Shown in pieces: positions 1,151 to 18,626 of a DNA stretch of 36,698 nt. Origin of the DNA: Methylococcaceae bacterium TMED69 (GTDB lineage: Bacteria; Pseudomonadota; Gammaproteobacteria; Ga0077536); assembly GCA_002170535.1 (NCBI GenBank), contig NHDW01000002.1, forward strand, positions 121,473 through 158,170, written 5' to 3'. Made by a program: the position numbers and the translations under genes. Each line of letters starts with the position of its first letter. The first letter of the stretch is position 1. Under the pieces are notes generated by a model, which worked only from the letters and a program-made list of their open reading frames with translations, was not told the DNA's origin and ran no database searches.

Positions 1151-1183
1151 GACTTCTAAGTCGTAATTTTAAAGGGATGGCTA

Positions 1184-2200
1184 ATGGCTGAAAAAAAGTT
1201 AAAATTTGGATTGTGGTACGATTTTCGCAACCCTCCAAAGTGGAAACAAGATAATACTGAGCTCTATCATGAATGCTTTGAGCAAATGGTTCGGGCGGAA
1301 GAAGGTGGTTTTGATGATATTTGGCTCTCGGAGCATCACTTTCTAGAAGATTGTTATTCTCCTTCTATGCTAGCGATAGGTTGCGCCATTGCTGTAAAGA
1401 CCAAAAAGATAAGGATAGGGACGAGTGTGCTACTGCTTCCTCTACATGATCCTGTACGAGTTGCTGAGGATGCTGCTACCCTAGATGTGATATCAGGCGG
1501 AAGATTGGAACTGGGACTTGGTGTGGGCTACAAGGTAGAGGAGCTAAAAGCCTGGGGAATTGAGCCAAAAAGCAGGGGTCGTAGGATGGAGGAGGGGATC
1601 GAGATTATTCAAAGATTATTCTCTGGAGAAAGATTCAGTTTCGAGGGAGAATTTCACAAATATGAAAACATCCAATTAAGGCCATTACCAGTCCAGAAAA
1701 AACCTAGACTTTGGATTGCTGGTTTTAGCAATGTTGCCGTTAAGAGGGCTGCCCGGGTAGGAGCTGGCTACATAGCCGTAGGGCCCATAGGCCCTTTCAC
1801 TCAAGTTTATCGAGATGAATTGACCAGACAGGGTAAAAACCCAGAAGATTTTGAAGTTGCCGCGGGTTATGCCTGGCTTCATGTATCAGAAAACCCAGAA
1901 AAACGATGGAAAGAAGCTGTAGAGCATCTAGCTTATCAACAGAACGAATATGGAAAGTGGTTTAAGGCGGCGGGAATGGACTTTATAAAGCCGGTTGAAG
2001 CGACGAAGGCTTCTGTCGAAAAAAACGACTGTTATATTGTAAGTCCTGATCAAGCTATAGAGATGATAAAAAAATATGTAGAAGCAACTGGAAGTAATAG
2101 ATTCTATACTTGGGCGGTACCACCAGGCTTAAATCCCCGTTGGTCTGACGAGCATATTGAATTGATGTCAAATAAAGTGATACCAGAATTTAAAAAATAG
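1184..2200 (+). CDS. LLM class flavin-dependent oxidoreductase
   Basis: 338 aa; GFDDIWLSEHHF, ISGGRLELGLGVGY, KPRLWIAGFSNVAVKRAARVGAGYI typical of LLM family. Confidence 0.88.
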   Translation: MAEKKLKFGLWYDFRNPPKWKQDNTELYHECFEQMVRAEEGGFDDIWLSEHHFLEDCYSPSMLAIGCAIAVKTKKIRIGTSVLLLPLHDPVRVAEDAATLDVISGGRLELGLGVGYKVEELKAWGIEPKSRGRRMEEGIEIIQRLFSGERFSFEGEFHKYENIQLRPLPVQKKPRLWIAGFSNVAVKRAARVGAGYIAVGPIGPFTQVYRDELTRQGKNPEDFEVAAGYAWLHVSENPEKRWKEAVEHLAYQQNEYGKWFKAAGMDFIKPVEATKASVEKNDCYIVSPDQAIEMIKKYVEATGSNRFYTWAVPPGLNPRWSDEHIELMSNKVIPEFKK

Positions 2201-2203
2201 GTC

Positions 2204-2971
2204 ATGATTAACTACGAACCTTTATCCACCATAATCAGTGCCTCAGGCTTAAGACTCATTCTGGTGGAAGGCTATCCCAGTCCTTGGGGTCACGCCGTCA
2301 AAGCTATGATGGAATATAAAGGCTTAATTTATAGGACAGGAGCACAAAAGGCTGGGGAGGATAATGTAGAGCTCAGTAATTGGTCAGGGGTAAACAGTGG
2401 TCCTATTGTGGCATGGGATTCGGGTGCTCCATTAAACCGCTGGAACGATATATTATTTCTGTTAGAGAGATTAAGCCCTGAAAGAAACTTAGTGCCTAAA
2501 GATGGAAGTCTACGAGTACAGTGCATGGGTTTATCTCATGAAATTTGCGGAGAGATTGGTCTGGGTTGGAATCGAAGATTATCAATGTTCAGACCTATAG
2601 TTGAGTCTAATGAGCGGCCTGACGGATTTGTGAATATGGCTAACAAATGGGGCTATAACCAATCAGATGTAGAAATGGCCGAGAAGAGGTCGGTGATTAT
2701 ATTAAGAACTTTAGCTGAGCAACTCAAACTTCAAAAAACTCGTAACAGTGGATTCTTTTTGGGCGAATCAGTAACAGCTGTTGATTTTTACTGGGCGGCG
2801 TTCAGTAATTTATGTGAGTTGATGCCTCAAAGTCGCTGTCCAATTTCGCCTGAACGTCGTCCCCTTTTTGAAAATGTAAGTGAGGCTATTAAACAGGAGC
2901 TAGACCCTATTTTAATGGAACACAGGGACAGAATTATGGATGATTATTTTGTGGTGCCAATGGATTTGTAG
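2204..2971 (+). CDS. glutathione S-transferase-like protein
   Basis: 255 aa; thioredoxin-fold-like start (LILVEGYPSPWGHAVKAMMEYKG), GPIVAWDSGAPLNRWNDILFLLERL, C-terminal helical region FFLGESVTAVDFYWAAFSNL. Confidence 0.65.
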   Translation: MINYEPLSTIISASGLRLILVEGYPSPWGHAVKAMMEYKGLIYRTGAQKAGEDNVELSNWSGVNSGPIVAWDSGAPLNRWNDILFLLERLSPERNLVPKDGSLRVQCMGLSHEICGEIGLGWNRRLSMFRPIVESNERPDGFVNMANKWGYNQSDVEMAEKRSVIILRTLAEQLKLQKTRNSGFFLGESVTAVDFYWAAFSNLCELMPQSRCPISPERRPLFENVSEAIKQELDPILMEHRDRIMDDYFVVPMDL

Positions 2972-2995
2972 AATTAACTGGAAATTTTTTAGATT

Positions 2996-3925
2996 ATGAT
3001 AGATAAAATACGATTAGGATTTGGTTTGCTAGATTATCCGTTTATGGATGGCCGTGAATTCTTTAAATGGGCGGAATTTCTTGAGGAGCATAAAATAGAT
3101 TCCTTATGGCAGTCAGACAGGCTTGTTTCGACTGATCCTTATTTAGAATCCTTAACGGCATTGGCTACTTTAGCGGGCTGTACAGAAAAGCTAAAATTTG
3201 GAATGAATGCAATTGTGGCACCTCTACGTGATCCTTTAGTGTTGGCGAAACAGTGCGCGACAATTGACTATCTAAGTGGTGGTAGGCTTTTGCCAATGTT
3301 CGGTGTTGGTTATCCCCATGCTGTTGAATGGGGTACAACTGGCAGAAGCTCTGATCATAGAGGATCTAAAGCCAATGAAATGTTTCAGTTACTTACTAAA
3401 CTTTGGACGGAGGATAAAGTTTGTTTTGAGGGAGAATTTTTTAACTATAAAAATGCGTGTATTGAGCCAAAGCCGGTTCAACAACCATTGCCGTTATGGA
3501 TTGGCGGAAATAGTAAGGCGGCCATAAAAAGAACCGCTAGGCTCGGTTCTGGTTGGATTGGTGGTGTTGCAAGCCCTTTAGAGGTGAAAACTGTAATTGA
3601 AGGGATTAAAGAAGAGTCAAAAAAAGTTGGTAGGAGTATTGATAGTGATCACTTTGGTGCTTCTCTCGCTTTTAGAATAGGCAGTCCAGACGATCCTGCA
3701 ATCAAAAATAATGCTTTTGTGAAGAGAACAGGTATTGGAGAAGATCTTGATTTGAATCCTTTGATTTGTGTAGGAAGCGTAAAGGACCTGATATCTCGGC
3801 TACACGAGTATCTAGAAGTTGGCGCAACAAAGTTCGTTCTCTTTCCTCTTGTAAGTGATTACAAAGATATGTGCGAGCAAACTAAATTAATAGTAGAAGA
3901 GGTTAAACCAATTATAGAAAATTAA
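2996..3925 (+). CDS. LLM class (F420-type) oxidoreductase
   Basis: 309 aa; LSGGRLLPMFGVGYP, LPLWIGGNSKAAIKRTARLGSGWIGG. Confidence 0.87.
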   Translation: MIDKIRLGFGLLDYPFMDGREFFKWAEFLEEHKIDSLWQSDRLVSTDPYLESLTALATLAGCTEKLKFGMNAIVAPLRDPLVLAKQCATIDYLSGGRLLPMFGVGYPHAVEWGTTGRSSDHRGSKANEMFQLLTKLWTEDKVCFEGEFFNYKNACIEPKPVQQPLPLWIGGNSKAAIKRTARLGSGWIGGVASPLEVKTVIEGIKEESKKVGRSIDSDHFGASLAFRIGSPDDPAIKNNAFVKRTGIGEDLDLNPLICVGSVKDLISRLHEYLEVGATKFVLFPLVSDYKDMCEQTKLIVEEVKPIIEN

Positions 3926-3930
3926 AAAAT

Positions 3931-4776
3931 CTATGGTTCATTGACTACTTTATTTTGAATAATACCCACTTTTTCTATTTCTATTTTTACTACATCCCCT
4001 GCTTTCAAGTAACGTTTTGGTTCAAATCCTATCCCAACTCCTCCGGGGGTGCCCGTCATGATAAGATCACCAGGTTCCAAAGTGAACGCAGTTGATAGTG
4101 TTTCTATTTGATCGTAACAATCGTAAACAAGGTTTGAGGTATTTGAGTCTTGACGTAACTCACCATTGACCCATGTCTTGATAGATAAATTATGTGGGTC
4201 CTTCACCTCGTCGAAAGTTGTGACGTGGGGCCCAAAGGGGCTGTGAGTATCAAAAGATTTCCCGAGTGTAAAAGTCGGCGAACGCATTTGCCAGTCTCTT
4301 ACGCTAACATCGTTACAGGTTACAAATCCCGCTATAACCTTCTTGGCGTCTTCCTTGCTTACGTGCCGACATTTTTTACCAATTATAAAACCAAGCTCTC
4401 CCTCATAATCTAGCTTATCGGAAACTCTTGGCAGATGAATATCGCCAAATGGACCGTTGACTGATGTTAGTTGCTTATTAAAAAATAAAGGGAATTCAGG
4501 TTTTTCAAATCCAGTCTCTTGAATATGGTCTTTATAATTTAACCCAATCGCAAGTATTTTTTGGGGCCTAATGACGGGTTGTATTAACTCGGTCCGCTCG
4601 AGAGGAACTGATGGCCCATTAAAACGTTCTAGATCTTTTTTGATGTTATCATATATTTCTAGCAATGAAACCATGTCGTTAGGAAAGACTGCTTTATCAA
4701 ATTCAACAACCTCTTTACCAACCAATTTCCCAACTTTTGGTGCACCACTCTTTTCAGTAAAAGTTACTAATCTCAT
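3931..4776 (-). CDS. fumarylacetoacetate hydrolase (FAH) family protein
   Basis: 281 aa; ILAIGLNYKDH, LDYEGELGFIIGK, NDVSVRDWQ, GKSFDTHSPFGPH, LIMTGTPGGVGIG. Confidence 0.9.
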   Translation of the reverse strand: MRLVTFTEKSGAPKVGKLVGKEVVEFDKAVFPNDMVSLLEIYDNIKKDLERFNGPSVPLERTELIQPVIRPQKILAIGLNYKDHIQETGFEKPEFPLFFNKQLTSVNGPFGDIHLPRVSDKLDYEGELGFIIGKKCRHVSKEDAKKVIAGFVTCNDVSVRDWQMRSPTFTLGKSFDTHSPFGPHVTTFDEVKDPHNLSIKTWVNGELRQDSNTSNLVYDCYDQIETLSTAFTLEPGDLIMTGTPGGVGIGFEPKRYLKAGDVVKIEIEKVGIIQNKVVNEP

Positions 4777-4827
4777 ATCTTTTCTCTATTAAAAATTATT
4801 TCTAGTTACTCGGTTTTACCTATAGAT

Positions 4828-7011
4828 TTAACCTCGAGTTGCTCTCCTGTAATGTAACACCAAAAATTCATCTAAGTACATTTCGAAGTCTGGTGGGATA
4901 ATTACAGTCGTCATTGGGTCTCTTATAATAGCTGGACCTGATATAACATTGCCAGCCATTAAGTTCGCCATTTCGTAAACACTAAAAGATTTCCATCCAT
5001 CCTTATGGTATACCTCTCTTTTCTCGACAAATGCATTTTTGTTAGGCTTGGAGTTTTTTAATTTATGTTTGAGAAGGTTAGGTTGAGGCTTGTCGGCTAT
5101 CGCTTCTAGGTTCACCTCCGTGATCGTAAATCCAGCGCCAGAAAACTTTGCACCTTCCGGATACATTTTAGAATACATTTCTTCAAACGAATCAATAAGG
5201 TTCCTCACATTTTCCGATTTTTGCATTTCTCCAGTCTCGAGCAGTGTATCAAAACTTTCGATTTGCCCAGTATATCGTACAGAGACACCGTACCTATATT
5301 TGATTTCTTCAGGCTTTATTCCTTCTGCATCCATTTCATGGATAGCTTCTTTCTTAAGTGTTTTCCAGGCCTCTGAAATATCGTTTGCTATTTGAACAAG
5401 CAACTCCTCCTTAGCATTCGCGGGAATGATTATCCGTGTTCCTCTGTTATATCGATGCATATACTCAGCGCATGCCGCTCCGAATGCAGAAAATCCAGCC
5501 GCGAAAGGAAGAGTAATAATATCTTCGAACTCGATATCTTCAGCAAATCCATACATATGAACAGGTCCAGCACCTCCGTAATAGAGCATCGTAAAGTCGT
5601 GAGTGTCAAAACCTTTAGATGCGACCATGGTTCTTAAAAGGTCGTTCATCTGCCCGTTGATGATTTGTAATACGCCAGCTCCTGCCTCGTAAACATCGAT
5701 TTCTAACGGATCTGCAACTGATTCCTTAAGAGCTTTTAAAGCTTTTTCTCTATCTAACTTTACTTGTCCGCCAAGGAAGTAGTCAGGATCGACATATCCT
5801 AAAGCCACATTTATATCGGTTACTGTTAATCGATCATATTCAAAACAAATACCGACTTTGGCACCTGCTGACTCTGGCCCAACATGGAGCCTTTTATATT
5901 CATCTACCCAAACCACTGAACCAGCTCCTTGCCCAGTGGAATCGAGTTCTACCATTGGCAGAGCTAGCCTATGTCCAGCAATATCAGCACTTTTTGTCAT
6001 TCCTATTCGACCATCTAATAGAAGGCCAACGTCAAAACTGGTTCCGCCCATATCAGCAGTGACAATGTTTTTCAGATTTAAAACTTTTCCAACAAAACGT
6101 GCACCAATCAAACCACCGATTGGGCCAGATATCATTGTTTCATATAGCCTAGGGTAATCCATATTAACCGCCCCGCCATAGGATAATAACGTGAGAAGTC
6201 TACCCTTAAAGCCAAAATCTTGCGCTGTTTTCTCAACTTTTAGAAAAGATTCTCTTGTTTGCTCAGCTGCAAAACATTGGAATATCAGACTTTTCATGCG
6301 ATTATTTTCTTTCGAGACCGGTGCAACGTCAGATGAGCATAGTACAGGGATGTTGACTCTTCTGTTTAAAATAATTTCATCTGCGATCTTCTTTGCTTGA
6401 TGTTCGTGTTTTGGATCAACAAAGGAATAGATGAACAAGATCCCGATTATCTCACACCCTTGATCGATTAATTTGTGAGTCGCATCTTTAACCTGTTGCT
6501 CATTCACAGGAATCAGCGTGTGCCCTGCGGGCAGGTGCACATCTCCTTGATAGCAACCTCCACCCAGTCGCTCGCTGATACTAATTACATTTTTAGGGTC
6601 AACTAGAGGACGAGGGTGTTTGTGCAACTGTTGATGTAACGCTTCCTCTTGGCTTTGTCCTAGATAAGTCAGGCCGCCTTCCATGATCGTGATATCGTCA
6701 AAGCCTCTAGTAACCAAAAGACCGACTTTTTTTCCATCACCTGTTAGAATTGCATTGAGCATCCCAGTTCCGCAGTAGATGTCAGCTGCAAGTTTTTCAT
6801 GGACGCTATCGCTAGTTAATCCAATATTCCCAGCCGCGTCAGCTACCGAATCAGAATAACTTTTTGCTTGGTTGTCACGTCTGCTTATAGATTTACCGAC
6901 CGTAAACGTTCCATCGGGTTTAACCAAGATAGCATCGGTCATAGTCCCGCCGGCGTCCAGCGCCACAATATAGTCTTCGCCTTTTTCATACGCGTTCATT
7001 TTTGCACTCAT
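4828..7011 (-). CDS. hydantoinase/oxoprolinase family protein, acetone-carboxylase beta-subunit-like
   Basis: 727 aa; ASKHA ATP-binding motifs DAGGTMTDAILV, DMGGTSFDVG; GPESAGAKVG, GYVDPDYFLGGQVKLD, YYGGAGPVHMYGFAE resemble acetone carboxylase beta rather than classical HyuA. Confidence 0.85.
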   Translation of the reverse strand: MSAKMNAYEKGEDYIVALDAGGTMTDAILVKPDGTFTVGKSISRRDNQAKSYSDSVADAAGNIGLTSDSVHEKLAADIYCGTGMLNAILTGDGKKVGLLVTRGFDDITIMEGGLTYLGQSQEEALHQQLHKHPRPLVDPKNVISISERLGGGCYQGDVHLPAGHTLIPVNEQQVKDATHKLIDQGCEIIGILFIYSFVDPKHEHQAKKIADEIILNRRVNIPVLCSSDVAPVSKENNRMKSLIFQCFAAEQTRESFLKVEKTAQDFGFKGRLLTLLSYGGAVNMDYPRLYETMISGPIGGLIGARFVGKVLNLKNIVTADMGGTSFDVGLLLDGRIGMTKSADIAGHRLALPMVELDSTGQGAGSVVWVDEYKRLHVGPESAGAKVGICFEYDRLTVTDINVALGYVDPDYFLGGQVKLDREKALKALKESVADPLEIDVYEAGAGVLQIINGQMNDLLRTMVASKGFDTHDFTMLYYGGAGPVHMYGFAEDIEFEDIITLPFAAGFSAFGAACAEYMHRYNRGTRIIIPANAKEELLVQIANDISEAWKTLKKEAIHEMDAEGIKPEEIKYRYGVSVRYTGQIESFDTLLETGEMQKSENVRNLIDSFEEMYSKMYPEGAKFSGAGFTITEVNLEAIADKPQPNLLKHKLKNSKPNKNAFVEKREVYHKDGWKSFSVYEMANLMAGNVISGPAIIRDPMTTVIIPPDFEMYLDEFLVLHYRRATRG

Positions 7012-7043
7012 CGAAAACCCCTAAATGTTGTCTTTTCTATTAA

Positions 7044-7610
7044 TTATTGTGCCCAGGAGGCAGTTTTCTTTTGGGACTGATCTTGATACCAATCTTTTGA
7101 TTCATCGTCTAAGGGGGAGTCTAGATAGTCTCTGTAAAAAGTATCGATATCTGGTAGCATTTCGAAAACAATTGGGTAACCAGGCGCAACCACTTCTACT
7201 GCGTGCTGGGTTCCACAGTTTGGGCAGAAGAACTCTCTTATCTCCTGCCAACCAGGTTCAGGAACCGCAGGTGCAGGAGTATAAACTCTAGACATTTCTT
7301 CTAAAGTTTTTCTTGTTCTGATTTTACAGCCCAGTTTCCAGTTTGTTCGATAATCTCCAAAGGAGTAACCACATTCGCATTGGGTTTCTCTGGCACCACC
7401 AGGTTTTGCTACAACATACAACTTGTCGCCCAAGCGCAGTAAAATTTTATCGTTCCATGATACTTTTTCTTGCAATACTTCAATGTAATTGAAAAACCTA
7501 TTTTTATCTTTTCTGGGTAGCTTTAACAGTCTTTCTGCATTGTCGTCATCTATGGTTCCATCTACAAGTTGCTTAATCAGTTCTTTACTAACCTCGAATT
7601 CTTCGCTCAT
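7044..7610 (-). CDS. acetone carboxylase gamma-subunit-like protein
   Basis: 188 aa; CECGYSFG and FFCPNCGTQHAVEV cysteine motifs; located between the HyuA- and HyuB-type genes. Confidence 0.78.
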   Translation of the reverse strand: MSEEFEVSKELIKQLVDGTIDDDNAERLLKLPRKDKNRFFNYIEVLQEKVSWNDKILLRLGDKLYVVAKPGGARETQCECGYSFGDYRTNWKLGCKIRTRKTLEEMSRVYTPAPAVPEPGWQEIREFFCPNCGTQHAVEVVAPGYPIVFEMLPDIDTFYRDYLDSPLDDESKDWYQDQSQKKTASWAQ

Positions 7611-7615
7611 CTGAC

Positions 7616-9844
7616 TTATTCCTCACTCATATAATCTTCGTTAAGCTGCCAAAAGGAGCAAAATTCATCTCTAAACTTATCGAAACTCAAACTTTGTTGA
7701 TACATTTCCTTCACTTCCTCGTTAAACCCAGTCTTTTGCACCATTTGGCGTTCAGTTTTCCACCACTCAGCTACTGGTTGAGATTCGTTTAAACGTAGTT
7801 GACGAAGATCCGCCCGTTTTTTCATTGTGGCTTTTTCATCTAGCTCCCAGGTTCCAAGTTCATTTTTTTCTGCGACAACCCCATGCATATCACTTAGAAA
7901 CTGATATTCTGTTGAGACTCCTTGATTAAGATCATTAACTACTAGTTGAGGCTCTCGATCCAAAGGGTCCCCCCATCCACCGGAACTTCCAGCGGCATCT
8001 ACAAATAAGTCGTTATTTTGAAGACTAAGTTCAGGGCAATCGGTCTTCCATATCTCTAAATTATCTATTTTGAGTTTGCCGCTTTCATGCTGCTCCAGCA
8101 GTTCTCTGGCGTCTCTTGGCGTTTCCCCTTTAGCTATAAGCTCGTCTAAGTTAGTTCCTCTCGCAGAAATCATGAAGCTTCCAGGTCCTGGGTAGGCACC
8201 ACTGACACCCAAGCCAACCGACGGAGTGCAGGAGAGCCCACCATTAGGCCTTGATAAGGCTAAATGTTTACCTGGTTCAACGCACCAGTGTACTGCTGAA
8301 TTTCCTGGACCACCTCTAAATCTGCCATATCCAAAAAATCCCGGCAGGAGCTTCCTTCCCAGATAAAAAAGTGCTGGAATAGTTGACTCAAATTCTTCTG
8401 CGTCGCCAATTGTTGCCATTTGTGACCAAGCTGCCCACACTAGAGGCTCGCCGTCTTTATAGCACCAGGCTCCTCTACCAGTGCCACCTAACCATTCAAA
8501 ATTAGTAAACCCATAGGCACTCCCGTCCTCTGTGGTTCCTTGTCCTTGGAATGCACCCCAATTGCCGTCTATAGTGAATGCTTCTTCCAAATAGCCTCTA
8601 CTGAACATTCCTCTGCTAACAGCCCCGAAACCAATGCTGTTTAATGCGACCGTCTGCGCCCAAAGATTGGAATTACTGGTAAATTCGTTGTCTGGATTGT
8701 AGATACTGCCTCTCGGATAGTTTCGTTGAACCGCCAATTCAATCCCTGCTGTTACTTTTGTGTTGTGTGAGAAGGAATTAATCATACCGAGAAAGATGGC
8801 ACAATCGGTCCCTCCTGGGGTCGCATTATAAGAATGATATCCCCATTTTGAACTTCCTTCAGCATCGATTTTAATTCCTTTTTCGTTTGGTTCTACACTG
8901 CCTCTTACATGAATTAGTGTGTTCTTGTCTGCATGTGCCCAAACATTCTGCAATCCTTTGTATTTTACTAAACGAAAAGCACAACCATTGTAGGTTCCCG
9001 GAACCATAGTTGATTTCATATTATCTACTACCATTCCTCTTGATTCTTCTATGACTTCTCTGATTGCTCGCTTGTAATAGTCCAGACCAAATTCTTCTAT
9101 TAACTTATGAGTTGTTTCATGAATCATCGCACATCCCGCCAGCCGCATCTTGTCATCTAAAATATTCATTGTTGCCGCCCGGGTCCTGCGTTCCCAAATC
9201 GCCTTCCACCAACTCTCTTGTTTTAGTTTTCTTCCCGTCCTCATTGGCGGACAAACTAAGCCGTCCATGAACGTGTCTACAGAAAATGTCGCCCAACTTC
9301 CTGCAACCGGCGCTCCATTTTCCATAAGATGATTTATACCTATAGCCCATGCAATCACTTCACCCTCTATGCAAATTGGTACAAAAGAATAGAAGTCGCC
9401 CGGATGAGGCACGCCACCGGTTAACCCATCACTTACGGCATAAACATCGCCATCTTCAATCCCATCATTTACATCATATTGATTTTTCGCCATGTATCTA
9501 ACGGCTACTGGAAAAATTGCGGTATGTGACAAGAAGCCAGCCGAGACTGCCAATGTGTCGCCTTCTGGAGTTGCTAGCCCCCACAAAACCTCTCCCATTT
9601 CACGGGATCCAGGACTGGCGGCGACGTATCTGGCGGATTCTCTGGCCGCAAGAACTGATGCATGTATTTTTGAATAAAAACGCTCGTATTTAATCGGATC
9701 AGAATCTCTTAAAGATAGTTCTGTTACCCCATAATAGTGCCCTGATTGTGAAGTCAGCTCGTCTCTTGTGTTTATCATGTCAAGGAGGGTTCTCTTATTC
9801 TCACCTCCAGCAGTATGCTTAATATCTTTAGCAATTGTGGCCAT
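7616..9844 (-). CDS. hydantoinase B/oxoprolinase family protein, acetone-carboxylase alpha-subunit-like
   Basis: 742 aa; FYSKIHASVLAARESARYVAASPGSREMGEVLWGLATPEGD, DVYAVSDGLTGGVPHPGDFYSFVPI, FFGYGRFRGGPGNSAVHWCVEPG, SSGGWGDPLDREP. Confidence 0.85.
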   Translation of the reverse strand: MATIAKDIKHTAGGENKRTLLDMINTRDELTSQSGHYYGVTELSLRDSDPIKYERFYSKIHASVLAARESARYVAASPGSREMGEVLWGLATPEGDTLAVSAGFLSHTAIFPVAVRYMAKNQYDVNDGIEDGDVYAVSDGLTGGVPHPGDFYSFVPICIEGEVIAWAIGINHLMENGAPVAGSWATFSVDTFMDGLVCPPMRTGRKLKQESWWKAIWERRTRAATMNILDDKMRLAGCAMIHETTHKLIEEFGLDYYKRAIREVIEESRGMVVDNMKSTMVPGTYNGCAFRLVKYKGLQNVWAHADKNTLIHVRGSVEPNEKGIKIDAEGSSKWGYHSYNATPGGTDCAIFLGMINSFSHNTKVTAGIELAVQRNYPRGSIYNPDNEFTSNSNLWAQTVALNSIGFGAVSRGMFSRGYLEEAFTIDGNWGAFQGQGTTEDGSAYGFTNFEWLGGTGRGAWCYKDGEPLVWAAWSQMATIGDAEEFESTIPALFYLGRKLLPGFFGYGRFRGGPGNSAVHWCVEPGKHLALSRPNGGLSCTPSVGLGVSGAYPGPGSFMISARGTNLDELIAKGETPRDARELLEQHESGKLKIDNLEIWKTDCPELSLQNNDLFVDAAGSSGGWGDPLDREPQLVVNDLNQGVSTEYQFLSDMHGVVAEKNELGTWELDEKATMKKRADLRQLRLNESQPVAEWWKTERQMVQKTGFNEEVKEMYQQSLSFDKFRDEFCSFWQLNEDYMSEE

Positions 9845-10055
9845 TAATTATTCCTCATTTTTCGATTAAATCCAGCAAAGGATTTTCTTTAAATTTTCCG
9901 TAGGAGAATTTTCTCTTTAGAACGGGTAGCAATATCTTTATAACTATTTGTCTAAGTATAGAAAATTACTAAAAAACAAGCAATAAAGATATGGGGAATA
10001 AACTTCTACAGCTATTCTTGTAATTGAAAATTGGGGCTTCAAATAATTTTGCCTT

Positions 10056-10073
10056 GTGATTATCCGAAATCAC
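10056..10073. promoter_or_regulatory. inverted repeat GTGATT-N6-AATCAC in a divergent intergenic region (candidate operator)
   Basis: perfect 6-bp arms read directly; lies in the ~366 bp gap between divergent operons. Confidence 0.3.
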
Positions 10074-10197
10074 TACTTTTGCTTTAGGCTTTCAATTTCG
10101 GTAGTCTAAAAACAGATGATACTTCAAAATGGTTATCACATTAAGATGCTATTTTTCTAATTAAAATTTTTTTAAGTTTTTAATCTATATGTATGTT

Positions 10198-10203
10198 TAT
10201 AAT
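10198..10203 (+). promoter_or_regulatory. candidate -10 element TATAAT upstream of the LLM gene
   Basis: consensus hexamer 7 nt before a TTG and 19 nt before an in-frame ATG; no good -35 box seen. Confidence 0.3.
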
Positions 10204-10210
10204 GTAATTT

Positions 10211-11269
10211 TTGGATAAAATAATGAAAATAGGCGTTATGTTAGGCTATTCCGGTTCGAAAGCGTCAGTTCCGACTGAGCTAGTCTTAGCGGCAGAATCA
10301 CTGGGTTACTCTTCTGTTTGGACAGCTGAAGCTTGGGGTTCTGATGCAGTCACTCCAGCCGCATGGATTCTAGCAAAAACCAACACCATAAAAGCAGGAA
10401 CAGCGATCATGCAAATGAGTGCTCGTACTCCTGCGATGACAGCTATGACGGCTATGACCTTAAATCATCTTTCAGAAGGACGTTTTATTGTCGGAATTGG
10501 CGCTTCAGGCCCTCAGGTTGTTGAGGGCTGGTACGGCGAACCTTACGGAAAGCCCATCCAAAGAACCAAAGAATACGTTTCTATACTAAAAAATATATTT
10601 TTGCGAGAGCAGCCTCTTGTTCATGAGGGGGAGCATTATCAGATTCCTTTCAGGGGGGAGGGAGCGATGGGTCAAGGAAAGCCACTAAAAAGTATTTTAC
10701 ACAGGAGTTCGAGTATTCCAATTTATACTGGTGTTGCAACAGAAAAAGGAGTAGCTACAGCCGCAGAAATTGCGGATGGTTGCATTCTAGTTTGGATGGA
10801 TCCAAAAAAAACCAGTTTGTGGTCCCGTTCACTGAATAAAGGATTCGCTCTATCAATGCATAAAAAAAAATCGCTAGATAATTTCGATTTGGCGACGGTT
10901 ATTCGCGTATCAATGGGCGATGACATGAATGCTTGCAGGATGAAAATAAAAAATACGTTTGCTCTTTATATAGGGGGCATGGGTTCGCGCCAAAAGAATT
11001 TCTATAATGATTACGCTCAAAGATTAGGTTATGTAAAAGAAGCGAAGGTGATTCAAGACTTATTTTTATCAGGTGAAAAGGATAAAGCAGCCCAAATCGT
11101 TCCAGATAGTCTAGTGGATGAAACGTCTCTGGTAGGACCAAAGAAACATGTTGCAGCACAATTAGAGAATTGGCAACAGGCATACTCAGAGCAAAAACTT
11201 GGAAGCCTAATCTTTAATGTAAGTAGCATAGATGAGCTTAAATTTATATCCAACATATTACTTAAGTAA
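10211..11269 (+). CDS. LLM class F420-type oxidoreductase (Rv3520c-like); TTG at 10211 or more likely ATG at 10223
   Basis: MKIGVMLGYSG start motif, LSEGRFIVGIGASGPQVVEGWYGEPYGKPIQRTKEYV, IPIYTGVATEKGVATAAEIADG. Confidence 0.87.
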   Translation: MDKIMKIGVMLGYSGSKASVPTELVLAAESLGYSSVWTAEAWGSDAVTPAAWILAKTNTIKAGTAIMQMSARTPAMTAMTAMTLNHLSEGRFIVGIGASGPQVVEGWYGEPYGKPIQRTKEYVSILKNIFLREQPLVHEGEHYQIPFRGEGAMGQGKPLKSILHRSSSIPIYTGVATEKGVATAAEIADGCILVWMDPKKTSLWSRSLNKGFALSMHKKKSLDNFDLATVIRVSMGDDMNACRMKIKNTFALYIGGMGSRQKNFYNDYAQRLGYVKEAKVIQDLFLSGEKDKAAQIVPDSLVDETSLVGPKKHVAAQLENWQQAYSEQKLGSLIFNVSSIDELKFISNILLK

Positions 11270-11428
11270 ATAATCATATAATGTTGTTTTCTCTAATTTT
11301 TTTAATAGTATTGTCGTTTTTAAGTTGAAGTAACAAAAAAACAGTTTTTGGTTTCTCTGTTCATCTAGATTACTATGGTGAAACTGATTCAGGATTGTTC
11401 GATATTTTTAGTTAAAGGCAATTAATTT

Positions 11429-12835
11429 ATGAGTTATGGCATACTTAATCTAGCACCTTATGTGCCACCCATGCGGCTAGAGCGAGGTGAAATTTATGGC
11501 GCGGTTGGCTGGGCCGTTCCGAGTTTGAAAGGATTAGCGACAGGCGAGAGGGCTGTAGCTAATTGGGATGAGGATGCAATTACCATGGGTTTTGAGGCTG
11601 CGCGACGTTGCTTATCTTCCAATCAACAACCACCTTCAAGAGTAACTTTCGCCTCAACAACATTTCCCTTTGCTGACCGGAGTAATAGTGGGATCATCTG
11701 TAGTGCATTGAACATGCCATCAAGTGTAAGAAATGAGGACGTCTTTGGTAGCAGAAGGGCTGCTGTTAGTGCTTTGGTAAGACATTTTGAAACTAAAGCG
11801 GATGGTTTACTGGTTGCGTCTGATTGTCGTGATGCAAAGCCAGGGAGCGCTCAGGAAATGAGCTATGGCCATGCTGCTGCTGCGGTTTTACTTGGTCAAG
11901 GCCGAGTAAAAGCAGAAATAATAGCGGCCTCTTCGATTCATGACGACCTCGTTGATCAATATCGCTCCAGAGGAAATCGATTTGATTATGCCCTAGAGGA
12001 ACGTTGGGTGAGAGAAGAAGGGTGGTTAAAAACCGTCCCTCAAGCAATAGATGATGTTATGAAAGCTGCTACGATAAGTACGGAAAATTTAGATAAAGTA
12101 ATAGTGCACGGCTCAAGCGGAGCGTCGCGTTCCGTCGCGAAAAAATTAGGGATTTCTCCCGAAAAAATCGCAAATAATTTATATTCTTCGGTAGGAGATG
12201 CAGGCACCGCGCACCCCTTGTTAATGTTAGCCGAGGCTGTTAAGCATTCAAAGGAAGCTGATCTCATTTTAGTTGTAGGTTTTGGCCAGGGGGCTGATGT
12301 GGTTTTGCTCAAAAGGACTAAAGAAAAACTTACTAATGATTGGGATTTTGAGTTAAATAGGCGTGTTGTGAAAAACTATACTCAATTTTTGTCTCTTCGG
12401 GACATGATTGCAATTGATTTTGGGCTGCGAGCTGAGAGAGATAACAGGACGGCTTTGTCTGCTTTTTATCGAAAAAACAAGGAGATAACAGGTATGCTTG
12501 GTGGAAGATGCACAAAGTGTAATACCTTACAATTTCCTAAAAGCTTAATCTGCGTAAAATGTGGCGCTTCCCATTCTCAAGAATTCGAATCGCTTGCGAA
12601 TATGGTTGGTCGAGTCAAGTCGTTTACTGAGGATTGGTTGGCTTACACGCCGTCTCCTCCTTACATCTACGGTAACGTGGAGTTCGAGGGAGAGGCTAAT
12701 ATTATGCTTGAGTTTGCCGATTTTGGTCCCGGACAAGTCAAAGTAGGTGATAACGTTCGATTGGTTTTTAGAATCAAGGATTTCGATGATAAAAGAGATT
12801 TTAGAAGATATTTTTGGAAACCGGCGCCGAGCTAA
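11429..12835 (+). CDS. HMG-CoA synthase-like (thiolase-fold) protein fused to C-terminal DUF35 Zn-ribbon/OB-fold domain
   Basis: 468 aa; N-terminal HMGS-like pattern (ASDCRDAKPGSAQEMSYGHAAAAVLLG, VIVHGSSGAS, VGFGQGADVVLL); C-terminal CTKCNTLQFPKSLICVKCGA Zn ribbon then OB-fold (GRVKSFT...VKVGDNVRLVF). Confidence 0.82.
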   Translation: MSYGILNLAPYVPPMRLERGEIYGAVGWAVPSLKGLATGERAVANWDEDAITMGFEAARRCLSSNQQPPSRVTFASTTFPFADRSNSGIICSALNMPSSVRNEDVFGSRRAAVSALVRHFETKADGLLVASDCRDAKPGSAQEMSYGHAAAAVLLGQGRVKAEIIAASSIHDDLVDQYRSRGNRFDYALEERWVREEGWLKTVPQAIDDVMKAATISTENLDKVIVHGSSGASRSVAKKLGISPEKIANNLYSSVGDAGTAHPLLMLAEAVKHSKEADLILVVGFGQGADVVLLKRTKEKLTNDWDFELNRRVVKNYTQFLSLRDMIAIDFGLRAERDNRTALSAFYRKNKEITGMLGGRCTKCNTLQFPKSLICVKCGASHSQEFESLANMVGRVKSFTEDWLAYTPSPPYIYGNVEFEGEANIMLEFADFGPGQVKVGDNVRLVFRIKDFDDKRDFRRYFWKPAPS

Positions 12836-12859
12836 GTTTAATTCAAGAGAGGGATTGTT

Positions 12860-14056
12860 ATGGCATCAGGAATAAAAGATAAGGTTGCAATTGTAGGCAT
12901 GGGCTGTTCTAAATTCGGGGAGAGATGGGATTGTGGGCCAGAAGAACTGATTTTGGAGGCTTTTGATGAGGCCATCCAAGATTCCCCAGTTAATAGAAAT
13001 CAAATTGAGATGGCTTGGCTTGGCCTTTTTTTTCAAGAACAGAGTGCAGGGAAATCTGCATTGCCTTTAAGTATCTCATTGCGCCTCCCAAACATCCCGG
13101 TCACAAGAGTGGAGAATATGTGTGCTACCGGTACAGAAGCACTTAGGGGCGCCGTCTACGCGGTTGCTGCGGGAGCTTGCGATGTTGCTATGGCAGTCGG
13201 AGTAGAGAAACTGAAAGATACGGGTTATCCCGGCCTTCCAGAAAGAAGCAAAGGCACTTTTGATGATTTATGGTTGCCCAATAGCACTGCGCCAGGTGCT
13301 TTTGCCCAATTAGCCACGGCTTACTCTGAAAAACATAAAAAGAACCCTAAAGATTTAAAAAGGGCTATGGCCCATGTTTCTGTTAAAAGCCATGCAAATG
13401 GAGTTTTGAATCCCAAGGCCCATTTAAGAAAAGAAATTACTGAAGAACAAGCAATGAATGCCCCAATGGTTTCAGCACCCTTAGGTCTTTATGATTGCTG
13501 CGGTGTAAGCGACGGCGCGGCTTGTGCGATAGTAATGAGCATTGAAAAGGCTAGGGCGCTGGGTTTGAAAAATTTTGTGGTGGTAAAAGCGATGCAATTA
13601 GCTCCTAGCAACGGTTTAGAAATGTCAAATAGTTCATGGGATGGTAGTTATCTTTTGACTACCAGAATTGCCTCAGAAAGGGCCTATAAAGAGGCTGGAA
13701 TTAGAAATCCGGAAAAAGAGATACACTTAACTGAAGTACATGACTGTTTTTCTATAACCGAATTAGTTGTAATGGAGGATCTTGGTCTCTGTGCCGAGGG
13801 GCAAGGAGTTAACGCGGTTTTAGACGGTAAATTTGACAAAGATGGTAAAATCCCTTGTCAAATTGATGGCGGGCTGAAGTGTTTTGGCCATCCAATAGGG
13901 GCAAGTGGTCTAAGAATGACCTACGAGATCTATAATCAACTGCTGGGTAGAGCGGGGGAGCGACAACTAGATTCCCCTTCTGTTGGCCTCACTCATAACC
14001 TTGGAGGACATCCATTCAGAAATGTTGCGAGTGTTTCTATATTTGGTCTGATTTAG
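12860..14056 (+). CDS. thiolase family protein (SCP-x / acetyl-CoA acetyltransferase-like)
   Basis: 398 aa; active-site ENMCATGTEALRGA, EVHDCFSITELV, GGLKCFGHPIGASGLRM, GLTHNLGGHPF. Confidence 0.9.
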   Translation: MASGIKDKVAIVGMGCSKFGERWDCGPEELILEAFDEAIQDSPVNRNQIEMAWLGLFFQEQSAGKSALPLSISLRLPNIPVTRVENMCATGTEALRGAVYAVAAGACDVAMAVGVEKLKDTGYPGLPERSKGTFDDLWLPNSTAPGAFAQLATAYSEKHKKNPKDLKRAMAHVSVKSHANGVLNPKAHLRKEITEEQAMNAPMVSAPLGLYDCCGVSDGAACAIVMSIEKARALGLKNFVVVKAMQLAPSNGLEMSNSSWDGSYLLTTRIASERAYKEAGIRNPEKEIHLTEVHDCFSITELVVMEDLGLCAEGQGVNAVLDGKFDKDGKIPCQIDGGLKCFGHPIGASGLRMTYEIYNQLLGRAGERQLDSPSVGLTHNLGGHPFRNVASVSIFGLI

Positions 14057-14074
14057 GCCATTAAAATCGCCAAT

Positions 14075-15523
14075 ATGTTGGAAGAAAAGTCAGTCGTCCA
14101 TAATTTATTTACCGATTTGTCTAGAACCAATCCTGAATTCAAGTTATTTGTGCCGGCAAAAAATAACACATTAGAGATTGTTAAATTGTGTGTTGATTCT
14201 GTTTGCCTATTTTTTGAGGAGCAAAAATTACAACAGGGGGATCGGGTCACTATCATAGCTCATAAAAATACAACTTACTTTAAGATCTATTTGGCGGCAT
14301 TAAAATTCGGTCTAGTCTTCAACCCTTTAAACCCGTCCTATTCGGAGAAAGAGGTAAAATATTTCATAGATGATTTTAACCCTGATTTAGTACTGGTCTC
14401 ATCAGATATCAATCCATTAATTAAAAAAATTATTAATAATAAATCAAAAGCTATTGAAATTAATAAACTTATTGATGTTAACAGACCAATTGAATTCAAA
14501 GCAGCTGCAGTTAGGCCGCAGGACTTAGCAGTACTCTTATACTCATCTGGGACTACTGGCTTACCTAAACCTATCGGATTATCACACGAGAATTTGAAGA
14601 CAAATGCGGCAGCTCTTTCCTCAGAATGGGGTCTCGGAGCGTCGGATGTACTGCTTCACACATTACCAATGTACCACATACATGGCTTGTTGATATCCTT
14701 AAATTCGGTGCTGTTGTCAGGCGCTAATTTAATCGCATTGCCAAAATTTTCTGTTGAAGAGGTAATGCAATACCTGGAACGGGCTACTATCTTTATGGGG
14801 GTGCCAACCTTTTACCATAGAATTCTAAATAACCCAGTGGTCAAAAAGATTAATTATTCTAAAATTCGATTATTTATATCTGGCTCTGCTCCTTTGTCTG
14901 AATCAATTTTAAAGCGATTTAAGGGTTCTACTGGACATACGATACTTGAAAGATATGGAATGACAGAGACTGGGGTAATTAGTTCTAATCCTGTATTAGG
15001 GAAGAGGAAACCTGGCTCAGTTGGAAAAGCTATCTCTTCTGTAAGTTTGCAGGTTCGGGCAATTGCAGATGGAGAAGTAGGAGAAGTTTGGGTGAAAGGC
15101 AAAAGTGTGTCGCAAATGGTATGCGAGAAAGATGGTTGGTTTAAGACTGGAGATTTAGGATATCTAGATGATGAGAATTATCTTTACCTTGTAGGGAGAA
15201 GCAAAGATATGATCATTACTGGCGGTATGAATGTTTATCCAAAAGAAATTGAAAGAGAACTAGAGCAAATTTTACCCGGAAGAGAGATAGCGGTGTTTGG
15301 GGTGCCTCATAGTGATTTTGGCGAAGCAGTGGTAGCTGCCGTTACGGGGCCCCAGATGAAACATGATGAAATTGAGACAAATCTGCGGACGTTAAAATCG
15401 AGAATAGCCAATTATAAGGTACCGAAAACCATATTTAATGTTAAATCTTTGCCTACAAATGTGATGGGAAAAGTTCAAAAAAACATGTTGAGAGACAAAT
15501 TTCATGATTTTTTTGAAGTATAA
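14075..15523 (+). CDS. AMP-dependent acyl-CoA synthetase, malonyl-CoA synthetase (MatB)-like
   Basis: 482 aa; YSSGTTGLPKPIGLSHENL, LLHTLPMYHIHGLLISLN, ATIFMGVPTFYHRIL, TILERYGMTETGV, MIITGGMNVYPKEIERELEQ. Confidence 0.88.
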   Translation: MLEEKSVVHNLFTDLSRTNPEFKLFVPAKNNTLEIVKLCVDSVCLFFEEQKLQQGDRVTIIAHKNTTYFKIYLAALKFGLVFNPLNPSYSEKEVKYFIDDFNPDLVLVSSDINPLIKKIINNKSKAIEINKLIDVNRPIEFKAAAVRPQDLAVLLYSSGTTGLPKPIGLSHENLKTNAAALSSEWGLGASDVLLHTLPMYHIHGLLISLNSVLLSGANLIALPKFSVEEVMQYLERATIFMGVPTFYHRILNNPVVKKINYSKIRLFISGSAPLSESILKRFKGSTGHTILERYGMTETGVISSNPVLGKRKPGSVGKAISSVSLQVRAIADGEVGEVWVKGKSVSQMVCEKDGWFKTGDLGYLDDENYLYLVGRSKDMIITGGMNVYPKEIERELEQILPGREIAVFGVPHSDFGEAVVAAVTGPQMKHDEIETNLRTLKSRIANYKVPKTIFNVKSLPTNVMGKVQKNMLRDKFHDFFEV

Positions 15524-15556
15524 TAACCTAACAGCAACGGAAGTGGAGATCTTTTA

Positions 15557-16015
15557 ATGGCAGGATTATTTTATGAGGAATTTAAAATAGGTCAGATTTT
15601 TGATCACCCAATCAGAAGAACCATTACTGAAACAGATAATGTTCTGTTCACCACTATGACCCATAATCCAGCTAGATTACACCTAGATGAGGAATATATG
15701 AAAAATGAGTCTCCTTATGGGACCAGAATTGTAAATAGTACTTTTACCTTGGCGCTCATGGTAGGAATTTCGGTTCATGAAACTACTTTGGGAACAACCG
15801 CCGCAAATTTAGGTTGGGATGAAGTACGCTTCCCTAAACCCCTTTTTCACGGAGATACCATTAGGGTGGAGACTGAGATTTTAGATAAAAGACTAAGTAA
15901 TTCAAGACCTGACAATGGGATAGTTATCTTTCAACATCGAGCATTTAATCAAAAAAATGAGTTGGTGGCTTCCTGTAAAAGATCGGGGCTAATGTTGAGG
16001 AAATCCGATGATTAG
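15557..16015 (+). CDS. MaoC family dehydratase/hydratase
   Basis: 152 aa; FKIGQIFDHPIRRTITETDNVLFTTMTHNPARLHLDEEY hot-dog fold hydratase pattern. Confidence 0.85.
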   Translation: MAGLFYEEFKIGQIFDHPIRRTITETDNVLFTTMTHNPARLHLDEEYMKNESPYGTRIVNSTFTLALMVGISVHETTLGTTAANLGWDEVRFPKPLFHGDTIRVETEILDKRLSNSRPDNGIVIFQHRAFNQKNELVASCKRSGLMLRKSDD

Positions 16016-16880
16016 ATCGCTTCTTTTTGCGCCTGGAGACAGCGAAAAAAAGATGACAAAGGCAAGCGAAGGTAATGCTGATGTTGTTATCTTGGATTTA
16101 GAGGATTCTGTATCGGAATCTCAGAAGGTAATTGCGAGAGGTATGGTCACAGAGTTCCTGAAAGTTAAATCAAAAGGGGTTAAGCCCAAGCTTTACGTTC
16201 GTGTCAACCCTTTGGATACCGAGTATTGCCTTTCTGATATAGCAGATATAGTTACTGGGGCTCCTGCTGGTATTTTATTGCCTAAATGCAATAGCGGAAG
16301 TGACATACAAAAGTTATCGAGTTATTTAGATGTCTTGGAGGTTGCTAATGGTTATCCAAAGAACTCTATTAAGATTATAGCAGTAGCCACAGAGACAGCA
16401 GCTTCAGTTTTTAATATGGGAAGCTACGAAAATTGTTCAGTAAGACTAAATGGAATCACTTGGGGTGCAGAGGATTTAGGAGCTGCTGTTAGGGCATCAA
16501 CTAGTTTGACATCAACCAAAGACTGGACATCTCCCTATCAAATGGTACGTTCTCTCTGTTTGTTCGGTGCTTATGCTGCCAACATTGAAGCATTGGATAC
16601 GGTTATGGCTGATTTTCGAGATACTTCCCAACTCGCAATTGTTTGTGACCAAGCAAGGAAAGATGGGTTTACAGGGAAGTTAGCGATTCACCCATGTCAA
16701 GTGGATATTATAAATCAAGCTTTTACGCCGACGAAAGAAGAAATAGAGCATTCGAGGGCTGTTTTGGCTTTATTTGAGGAAAATCCTGATGCCGGAACTC
16801 TTCAACTCGACGGAAAAATGATTGATAAACCTCACATCGAACAAGCAAAAAAGATTCTTGATGGAATAAAAAATTTGTAA
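16008..16880 (+). CDS. HpcH/HpaI-CitE family CoA-ester lyase (citramalyl/malyl-CoA lyase-like)
   Basis: 290 aa; RSLLFAPGDSEKKMTKA, ADVVILDLEDSV, VATETAASVFNM, GITWGAEDLGAAV, GKLAIHPCQVDIINQAFTPT; start overlaps MaoC stop. Confidence 0.9.
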   Translation: MIRSLLFAPGDSEKKMTKASEGNADVVILDLEDSVSESQKVIARGMVTEFLKVKSKGVKPKLYVRVNPLDTEYCLSDIADIVTGAPAGILLPKCNSGSDIQKLSSYLDVLEVANGYPKNSIKIIAVATETAASVFNMGSYENCSVRLNGITWGAEDLGAAVRASTSLTSTKDWTSPYQMVRSLCLFGAYAANIEALDTVMADFRDTSQLAIVCDQARKDGFTGKLAIHPCQVDIINQAFTPTKEEIEHSRAVLALFEENPDAGTLQLDGKMIDKPHIEQAKKILDGIKNL

Positions 16881-16898
16881 CCTGAAGGAGGCAAGAAT

Positions 16899-17774
16899 TT
16901 GTCGTCTAATTGGAGAAGCCTAAAAAAAAGTGTAAATGTTAGTGGGCTAAAAATAAGCTATGTTGAAATGGGGGTTGGTCGTCCTATTATTTTTCAACAT
17001 GGCAATCCAACTTCTTCTTTTCTTTGGAGAAAAATCATGCCCAAGATAAGTCAGTTGGGCAGATGTATTGCTATTGACCTAGTTGGAATGGGTGATTCAG
17101 ACAAAATTTCTGACATTAATAACTCTAGCTATACTTTTAACAACCATAAAAACTATTGGCGAAAGGCTCTCCAGGCATTAGGAGTAGAGAAAAATATTAT
17201 ATTCGTACTTCATGATTGGGGCAGTGCGCTTGGATTTGATTATTTCGCAGATAGTCCGGATACGGTTGATGGAATTTGCCACATGGAGGCCATTTACGAC
17301 CGGATGGACTGGGCCGATTGGCCAGAAAGTTCAAGAAAAATTTTTCAAGGCTTGAGAGGGGGCAGAGGCGAAGAGATGATCTTGAAAAAAAATATTTTTG
17401 TTGAGAGGATACTTCCTGCCTCAATCCTGAGACGATTGACTAATGAAGAAATGGATGAATATAGACGTCCGTTCACAGATGAGGGTATGGCTCGTTTACC
17501 AACTCTTGCCTGGCCAAGACAGTTACCAATTGCTAATGTACCTTCTGACGTCTGTGCCGTTGTTAAACGCTACAATGCAGTTTTGCGAGAAAACGATGTT
17601 TCGAAATTATTTATCAATGCTGACCCTGGCGTCATAGTTACAAGCCGTATTAAAGAGATTGTCCGAAGTTGGACTAATCAGAAGGAAGTTACTGTGAAAG
17701 GGCTTCACTTTATTCAAGAAGATTCGCCAGATGAAATTTCAAGTGCATTGTTTGATTGGATGCAGGGAATCTAA
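16899..17774 (+). CDS. haloalkane dehalogenase, HLD-II (LinB-like), TTG start
   Basis: 291 aa; GAAGGAGG SD; HGNPTSSFLWR, DLVGMGDSDK, VLHDWGSALGFDY (nucleophile D + W), MEAI (acid E), LHFIQEDSPDEI (base H): complete pentad as in LinB. Confidence 0.9.
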   Translation: MSSNWRSLKKSVNVSGLKISYVEMGVGRPIIFQHGNPTSSFLWRKIMPKISQLGRCIAIDLVGMGDSDKISDINNSSYTFNNHKNYWRKALQALGVEKNIIFVLHDWGSALGFDYFADSPDTVDGICHMEAIYDRMDWADWPESSRKIFQGLRGGRGEEMILKKNIFVERILPASILRRLTNEEMDEYRRPFTDEGMARLPTLAWPRQLPIANVPSDVCAVVKRYNAVLRENDVSKLFINADPGVIVTSRIKEIVRSWTNQKEVTVKGLHFIQEDSPDEISSALFDWMQGI

Positions 17775-17819
17775 ACTTGAAAGTTTAAGAATGAATAGTT
17801 CAAAAAGAGTATAAGCTAA

Positions 17820-18626
17820 ATGAGCGGAAACGAAAAAGTAACAGCCCTAACTTTAAAAAATTTTAAAAAAAAGAAAGAAAAGATCGCTTGCATGACTGCT
17901 TACGATGCTGCTTTTGGACAGATTTTAGATAATATAGGGATAGATGTGATTTTAGTGGGCGATAGCGTTGGAATGGTTGTCCAAGGGCATCAAACTACTG
18001 TTCCCGTGAGTATCGAAGATATGATTTATCACTCCAAAATGGTGAACAGAGGAGTAAATCGGGCAATGATCATGGTCGATATGCCCTTTATGAGCTACGC
18101 TACCCCTGCCGAATGCCTAGCTAATGCAGCGCTCCTTATGAAAGAGGGTGGTGCAGAGTTTATAAAGTTGGAATGGGGTGAGCTTGAGATTGATATGGTT
18201 AAACGGCTTACCGAATGTGGTATTCCAGTTTGTGCACACCTAGGTCTAACCCCACAAGCGATCCATAAATATGGTGGTTATAGGGTTCAAGGTCGCGAGT
18301 TAGAAGCGGCAAAAAAAATGCAAGATGACGCTTTATCTTTAGTGGAAGCCGGAGCGGATTTATTGCTTTTGGAATGCGTCCCCATTGAGCTTGCGAAAAA
18401 CATTACTATTGAGTCAAAAGTTCCAGTTATAGGAATTGGCGCGGGTAAAGAAGTTGATGGTCAAATTTTAGTTTTGTATGACGCAATAGATATAGCGCCG
18501 GGTAAACGTACACGGTTTTCTAAAAATTTTATGGAGCAGGAGGGTTCTATTCAGGGTGCCTTAAAAGCCTATGTTAAGGAAGTAAAGTCCGGGCTTTTTC
18601 CTTCTAAAGAATATTCCTTTGATTAA
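17820..18626 (+). CDS. panB: 3-methyl-2-oxobutanoate hydroxymethyltransferase (ketopantoate hydroxymethyltransferase)
   Basis: 268 aa; MTAYDAAFGQILD, VGDSVGMVVQGHQTTVPVSIEDMIYHSKMV, GLTPQAIHKYGGYRVQGR, GIGAG. Confidence 0.92.
   Translation: MSGNEKVTALTLKNFKKKKEKIACMTAYDAAFGQILDNIGIDVILVGDSVGMVVQGHQTTVPVSIEDMIYHSKMVNRGVNRAMIMVDMPFMSYATPAECLANAALLMKEGGAEFIKLEWGELEIDMVKRLTECGIPVCAHLGLTPQAIHKYGGYRVQGRELEAAKKMQDDALSLVEAGADLLLLECVPIELAKNITIESKVPVIGIGAGKEVDGQILVLYDAIDIAPGKRTRFSKNFMEQEGSIQGALKAYVKEVKSGLFPSKEYSFD

Follow-up and report, generated by a model that had tools for sequence, protein, structure and literature searches.

A gene cluster at positions 3931-18626 of a 36,698-nucleotide stretch of DNA from Methylococcaceae bacterium TMED69 (the window; assembly GCA_002170535.1, contig NHDW01000002.1, positions 121,473 to 158,170, labelled G000:C1:121473-158170) probably comprises two catabolic units with separate functions, placed next to each other by retained gene order and local gene loss. 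We predict that unit A (3931-11269) encodes an acetone-carboxylase-type enzyme whose ketone substrate is not acetone, and that unit B (11429-18626) encodes enzymes of CoA-ester degradation. The host genome is a 2.0-Mb assembly in 10 contigs, about 90% complete, and was compared with metagenome-assembled genomes (MAGs) and single-cell genomes of uncultured Gammaproteobacteria; the family holds 36 genomes, with genera labelled g1-g9 (G-labels denote family genomes and L-labels other sequence records). Profile searches recovered all of the families that an earlier, sequence-only reading had assigned to the open reading frames (ORFs), each where it had been placed, and the two divergent runs it described are indeed parted by a single intergenic gap of 366 bp. 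The plus-strand run, which it had ended at 17774, continues through panB, 45 bp downstream and a member of the block conserved in relatives. The features are as follows.

3931..4776, minus strand: FAH-family hydrolase, last gene of the carboxylase operon (PF01557, 1e-68)
4828..7011, minus strand: acetone carboxylase beta-type subunit (Hydantoinase_A, nucleotide-binding; 483 bits full length to 5svb_B)
7044..7610, minus strand: acetone carboxylase gamma-type subunit (PF08882, 4e-37; 180 bits to 5svb_C, by profile)
7616..9844, minus strand: acetone carboxylase alpha-type subunit (Hydantoinase_B; 348 bits full length to 5m45_A)
9845..10210, no strand: divergent intergenic region between the carboxylase operon and the LLM gene (from the ORF table)
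10211..11269, plus strand: luciferase-like (LLM-class) oxidoreductase LLM4 (TIGR03559 type; 376 bits, cut-off 335), adjoining the carboxylase in rearranged genomes
11429..12835, plus strand: HMG-CoA synthase-like (HMGS-like) domain fused to DUF35 (ChsH2-type Zn ribbon and OB fold; profile matches)
12860..14056, plus strand: thiolase of the HMGS/DUF35-associated type (PRK06157, 653 bits, cut-off 403; 183 bits to 6esq_A)
14075..15523, plus strand: MatB-like acyl-CoA synthetase (331 bits to malonyl-CoA synthetase 4fuq)
15557..16015, plus strand: MaoC hydratase related to itaconyl-CoA hydratase RipB/Ich (130 bits against an equivalog cut-off of 340)
16008..16880, plus strand: CitE-type CoA-ester lyase related to RipC/Ccl and malyl-CoA lyase (159 bits against an equivalog cut-off of 375)
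16899..17774, plus strand: haloalkane dehalogenase, LinB-like (PRK03592, 365 bits, cut-off 241; 364 bits to 7pw1)
17820..18626, plus strand: panB, conserved end of the plus-strand block (TIGR00222, 333 bits), behind the dehalogenase gene in relatives

The two units are distinguished by their neighbourhoods in rearranged genomes of the family. There, unit A pairs the HyuB-gamma-HyuA-FAH run with two divergently oriented LLM genes, LLM4 and a second one, and is often followed by a quinone-reductase-like gene and, in some genera, by an MBL-fold hydrolase gene past LLM4. Unit B has two parts, B1 (the HMGS-like/DUF35 fusion and the thiolase) and B2 (acyl-CoA dehydrogenase, MatB-like ligase, MaoC, CitE, haloalkane dehalogenase, FlK-type thioesterase, panB, and TesB). 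LLM4, previously grouped with the plus-strand operon, pairs in relatives with the carboxylase operon instead. The second LLM gene of the relatives lies between HyuB and LLM4, and their LLM4 is parted from the HMGS-like gene by 2.5-23 kb of other genes, which include an MBL hydrolase gene and one for a CaiB CoA-transferase. At the window locus there are no second LLM, reductase, MBL, CaiB, dehydrogenase, FlK or TesB genes, nor were remnants of the second LLM, MBL, CaiB, dehydrogenase, FlK-type or TesB genes found in the window; matches to the second-LLM query fall on other LLM genes there, and the host genome holds no close copy elsewhere (best match 30%). Because these intervening genes are missing here, LLM4 lies 159 bp from B1 and the plus-strand run resembles a single operon. 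A contig-joining artefact is unlikely, since independently assembled contigs of relatives show the same gene order.

In seven genomes of three genera (g1, g4, g9), no more than about 12 kb parts unit A from B1. The sequence-only reading had proposed a single pathway in which the beta-keto acid made by the carboxylase would pass to the MatB-like ligase and then to the HMGS/DUF35-associated thiolase. Such a route would parallel acetophenone degradation, where ApcABCDE acts in a sequence of carboxylation, CoA activation and thiolysis (PMC5214803). We consider it unlikely. The adjacency belongs to a general collinearity of approximately 80-100 kb around the window in g1, g9, and g6 (to the contig end), in which nearly all matched genes, asnS and metH among them, keep the same order, indicating inherited gene order; a 23-kb insertion separates A from B in g6. 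In g2, g3, g5, and g8 the units are on different contigs or far apart, each conserved internally. Five near-complete genomes (G001, G005, G011, G019, G021) have B1 without an orthologous carboxylase, three others (G007, G026, G027) have the carboxylase and no HMGS-like gene or B1 of the window type, and G035 retains two LLM genes, MBL and B2, with neither a carboxylase ortholog nor B1 at that place. Plasmids of Sphingobium TomTYG64 (L190) and Diaphorobacter HDW4B (L193) likewise carry HMGS-like/DUF35-thiolase-MaoC-CitE-dehydrogenase sets without a carboxylase. Moreover, the single pathway in its simplest form leaves no role for MaoC and CitE. After this synteny control and these presence/absence counts, we rejected a single pathway read from adjacency as our principal explanation: orthologous carboxylase operons do occur away from the plus-strand genes, in g2, g3, g5 and g8, which is largely the outcome that the sequence-only reading had itself named as speaking against its proposal. 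From the same neighbourhoods we infer that the two units are independent.

The carboxylase operon contains only HyuB, gamma, HyuA and FAH genes, with no alpha-prime or epsilon type, and the FAH gene sits 3' of HyuA across the whole family wherever the contig extends far enough. Acetone carboxylases have been distinguished by three genes, two subunits of ~720 and ~720 residues, and a gamma subunit with ~50 extra N-terminal residues (PMC5214803); the window operon has the same three genes, long subunits (742 residues for alpha, 727 for beta) and a long gamma subunit (188 residues) whose alignment to 5svb_C starts at the N-terminus. The Xanthobacter autotrophicus acetone carboxylase AcxABC (5svb/5m45; PMC5543143) scores 348/483/180 bits for alpha/beta/gamma versus 118/286/43 bits for acetophenone carboxylase, the gamma scores coming from a profile. 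All three subunits align over nearly their full length with their AcxABC counterparts and match them in size, although at only ~32-43% identity each. The Mn ligands of the solved alpha subunit (E89, H150, D153, H175; PMC5543143) correspond by alignment to E85, H147, D150, and H172 in the window protein, and all four are retained in each of the 26 readable members of its clade. Likewise, the Zn cysteines of the gamma subunit (C78, C80, C129, C132) are all retained and are invariant across the alignment. ApcABCDE of Aromatoleum aromaticum (5l9w; PMC5214803) belongs to the same superfamily but differs from the window operon, which lacks an alpha-prime gene, has a longer gamma subunit and matches it much more weakly in sequence. 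The full-length matches to 5svb/5m45 and the intact Mn site thus uphold the original assignment to the acetone-carboxylase type.

The fold is common to hydrolases, and an ATP-dependent cyclic amide or lactam hydrolase of the hydantoinase/caprolactamase type could be proposed in place of a carboxylase: the nucleotide-binding subunit matches the caprolactamase model CapA at 364 bits, far short of the cut-off of 1000, and one deltaproteobacterial relative has neighbours that, by our reading of the sequences, are nitrile-hydratase-like. This is very unlikely, given that the operon includes a gamma subunit, reported to be absent from hydantoinases (PMC5214803), and that subunit lengths and match scores track acetone carboxylase, with hydantoinase/caprolactamase matches clearly below it for the window subunits.

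In a tree of 61 alpha-type subunits, the rows with the gene order alpha-gamma-beta form a single group with 100/100 support, confined to this bacterial family, a deltaproteobacterial MAG (L097) and, in the Bacillota, Paradesulfitobacterium (L098) and Desulfofundulus (L099). The window carboxylase does not group with the characterised acetone carboxylases; two groups with the usual gene order, the classic Xanthobacter/Aromatoleum enzymes and one of Ensifer type, fall outside this clade, within which the order is alpha-gamma-beta throughout rather than acxA-acxB-acxC. As some long branches meet, the deeper joins of the tree are unsure, and distant clade members may be overlooked because the scan of genome contigs relied on two peptide patterns. 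We mapped the proposed pocket residue Q344 of acetophenone carboxylase by alignment at low identity. The equivalent position is Glu in 26 of 27 clade members (E355 in the 4828-7011 subunit of the window), Ala in 11 of 13 classic-clade rows and His in seven of eight Ensifer-type rows; three of 13 more distant rows also carry Glu, so that this residue is not unique to the clade. Glu instead of Ala at the predicted pocket would make acetone an unlikely substrate.

An ordinary acetone carboxylase with acetone as its natural substrate seems rather improbable, even though the nearest characterised enzyme is an acetone carboxylase and the Mn and Zn sites are intact: the separate deep clade with its different gene order, the change from Ala to Glu at the predicted pocket, and the constant association with LLM flavoenzymes and FAH in the family all distinguish it from AcxABC. 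The substrate is therefore probably a ketone other than acetone, as the sequence-only reading had suggested. Phytone (6,10,14-trimethylpentadecan-2-one), one idea for this ketone, was set aside after a literature search gave nothing pertinent.

The enzyme predicted for unit A would depend on ATP, bicarbonate and Mn. The 4828-7011 subunit would bind ATP and phosphorylate the ketone enol and then bicarbonate; the intermediates would then pass to the 7616-9844 subunit, whose Mn site would form a beta-keto acid, and the LLM flavoenzymes and FAH hydrolase could act as partners of the carboxylase. In the cited literature, ketone carboxylases have been characterised only for acetone and acetophenone. 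A further-reaching reading, somewhat less likely than not, is that the clade represents a third, uncharacterised lineage of ketone carboxylases that need no biotin, tied to LLM flavoenzymes and an FAH hydrolase and acting on a ketone without a described carboxylation pathway, in an uncultured family for which ketone carboxylation has become a specialty.

PF08882 is found in 34 of the 36 family genomes and in three of the 365 genomes sampled from the rest of the class, at differing thresholds (1e-3 vs 1e-20), with some of the weaker family matches being a domain within ~770-residue proteins. This enrichment suggests that ketone-carboxylase-type enzymes are a hallmark of the family. The 5.7-Mb genome G018 has up to 14 PF08882 matches, several of them 49-65% identical to the window gamma subunit. 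Two family MAGs (L085 and L093) are titled Klebsiella pneumoniae in public records, an apparent mislabelling.

In unit B, the MatB-like ligase may activate an acid, MaoC may hydrate an enoyl-CoA and the CitE-type lyase may cleave the resulting hydroxyacyl-CoA, while the thiolase, on an HMGS-like/DUF35 scaffold, could cleave a beta-ketoacyl-CoA. The HMGS-like/DUF35 fusion named by the sequence-only reading is real, but its HMGS-like part lacks a Cys where 6esq has C114, and a genuine HMG-CoA synthase role for 11429-12835 was ruled out by the absence of this catalytic residue. The thiolase retains its nucleophile (VENMCATG) and is thus the likely catalytic partner. Thiolase/HMGS/DUF35 complexes (6esq) and the acyltransferase PhlACB (5m3k, 9skh) combine the same three domain types from adjacent genes with a thiolase Cys, and PhlA likewise lacks the Cys in its HMGS-like part; in the window, unlike these systems, the HMGS-like and DUF35 parts are fused in one protein, and the context is catabolic.

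The relatives' version of unit B shares its enzyme types (CoA-transferase, acyl-CoA dehydrogenase, MaoC and CitE) with the itaconate/methylsuccinate cluster (ict, mcd, ich, ccl) characterised in Cupriavidus and Pseudomonas (PMC12290011). We infer by analogy that unit B could activate a branched dicarboxylic acid, or one like it, which would then be dehydrogenated, hydrated and split by the lyase. Further genes of the pathway may be encoded elsewhere in the host genome. It differs from that cluster in that its MaoC and CitE proteins fall below the Ich/RipB and Ccl/RipC equivalog cut-offs, the dehydrogenase and CoA-transferase are missing at the window locus, and a MatB-like ligase (478 bits, below the NCBIfam subfamily cut-off of 558) and the HMGS/thiolase pair are added. 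Plasmid-borne catabolic clusters with HMGS-like/DUF35-thiolase and/or MaoC-CitE-dehydrogenase sets are represented by L190 (AP027328.1), L193 (NZ_CP049906.1), and L194 (NZ_AP023183.1); the latter two adjoin genes for DUF1302, YCF48-related and MMPL transporter proteins, with DUF1329 also in L193.

The haloalkane dehalogenase is a constant part of the unit B block, next to which relatives add a FlK-family thioesterase (PF22636; L064:16607-17032). In the alignment to 7pw1 its HGNP and HDWGS motifs and His match, which we take to be the Asp nucleophile, the halide-binding Asn and Trp, and the His. Together with the fluoroacetyl-CoA-specific FlK thioesterase, the dehalogenase might hint at halogenated substrates.

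Several observations weigh against two separate units built around a non-acetone ketone carboxylase. We know of no activity for any member of this carboxylase clade, so that a non-carboxylating ATPase or hydrolase is possible, and the pocket position was mapped by low-identity alignment to acetophenone carboxylase. In Desulfofundulus, the clade carboxylase is followed by genes for a CaiB CoA-transferase, an acyl-CoA dehydrogenase and a 3-hydroxyacyl-CoA dehydrogenase, and the operon continues with enoyl-CoA hydratase, thiolase, HMGS-like and DUF35 genes. By uniting the carboxylase with the thiolase/HMGS-like/DUF35 trio, this arrangement suits carboxylation, CoA activation and thiolysis and thus favours the single pathway, albeit in a single genome of a distant phylum; in Paradesulfitobacterium, CoA-transferase and beta-oxidation genes lie close to the sister operon, and there is no HMGS/DUF35 pair. 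Finally, the 159-bp gap after 11269, where no terminator was found, would allow co-transcription of the LLM and HMGS-like genes; promoter and terminator matches in 9700-11600 were no more frequent than in shuffled sequence.

Elsewhere in the window, 21527-24976 encodes a fused isobutyryl-CoA mutase, IcmF (1656 bits, cut-off 1500), syntenic near panB in relatives; it is preceded by a GAF/PAS/adenylate-cyclase protein (19161-21470) not seen in the relatives' synteny. A 255-residue protein (2204-2971) has no Pfam match at 1e-3 and a weak likeness to glutathione S-transferase, and its gene is conserved next to LLM3 in g1, g4, and g6. The 2-Mb genome has ~22 LLM matches, including those in window positions 44-3925 and 10211-11269, an expansion for a genome of such size. 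A search for RNA families found none, and a literature search found no published account of this cluster or of TMED61.

The negative result on the single pathway is instructive: in a genome this small and highly collinear, gene proximity led the guess at a pathway astray. The further clade, well supported, with its metal sites intact and its predicted pocket altered, offers a defined starting point in the search for a carboxylation substrate not yet described. It also draws attention to a bacterial family that carries ketone-carboxylase-type enzymes almost universally, while they are rare in the rest of the class.

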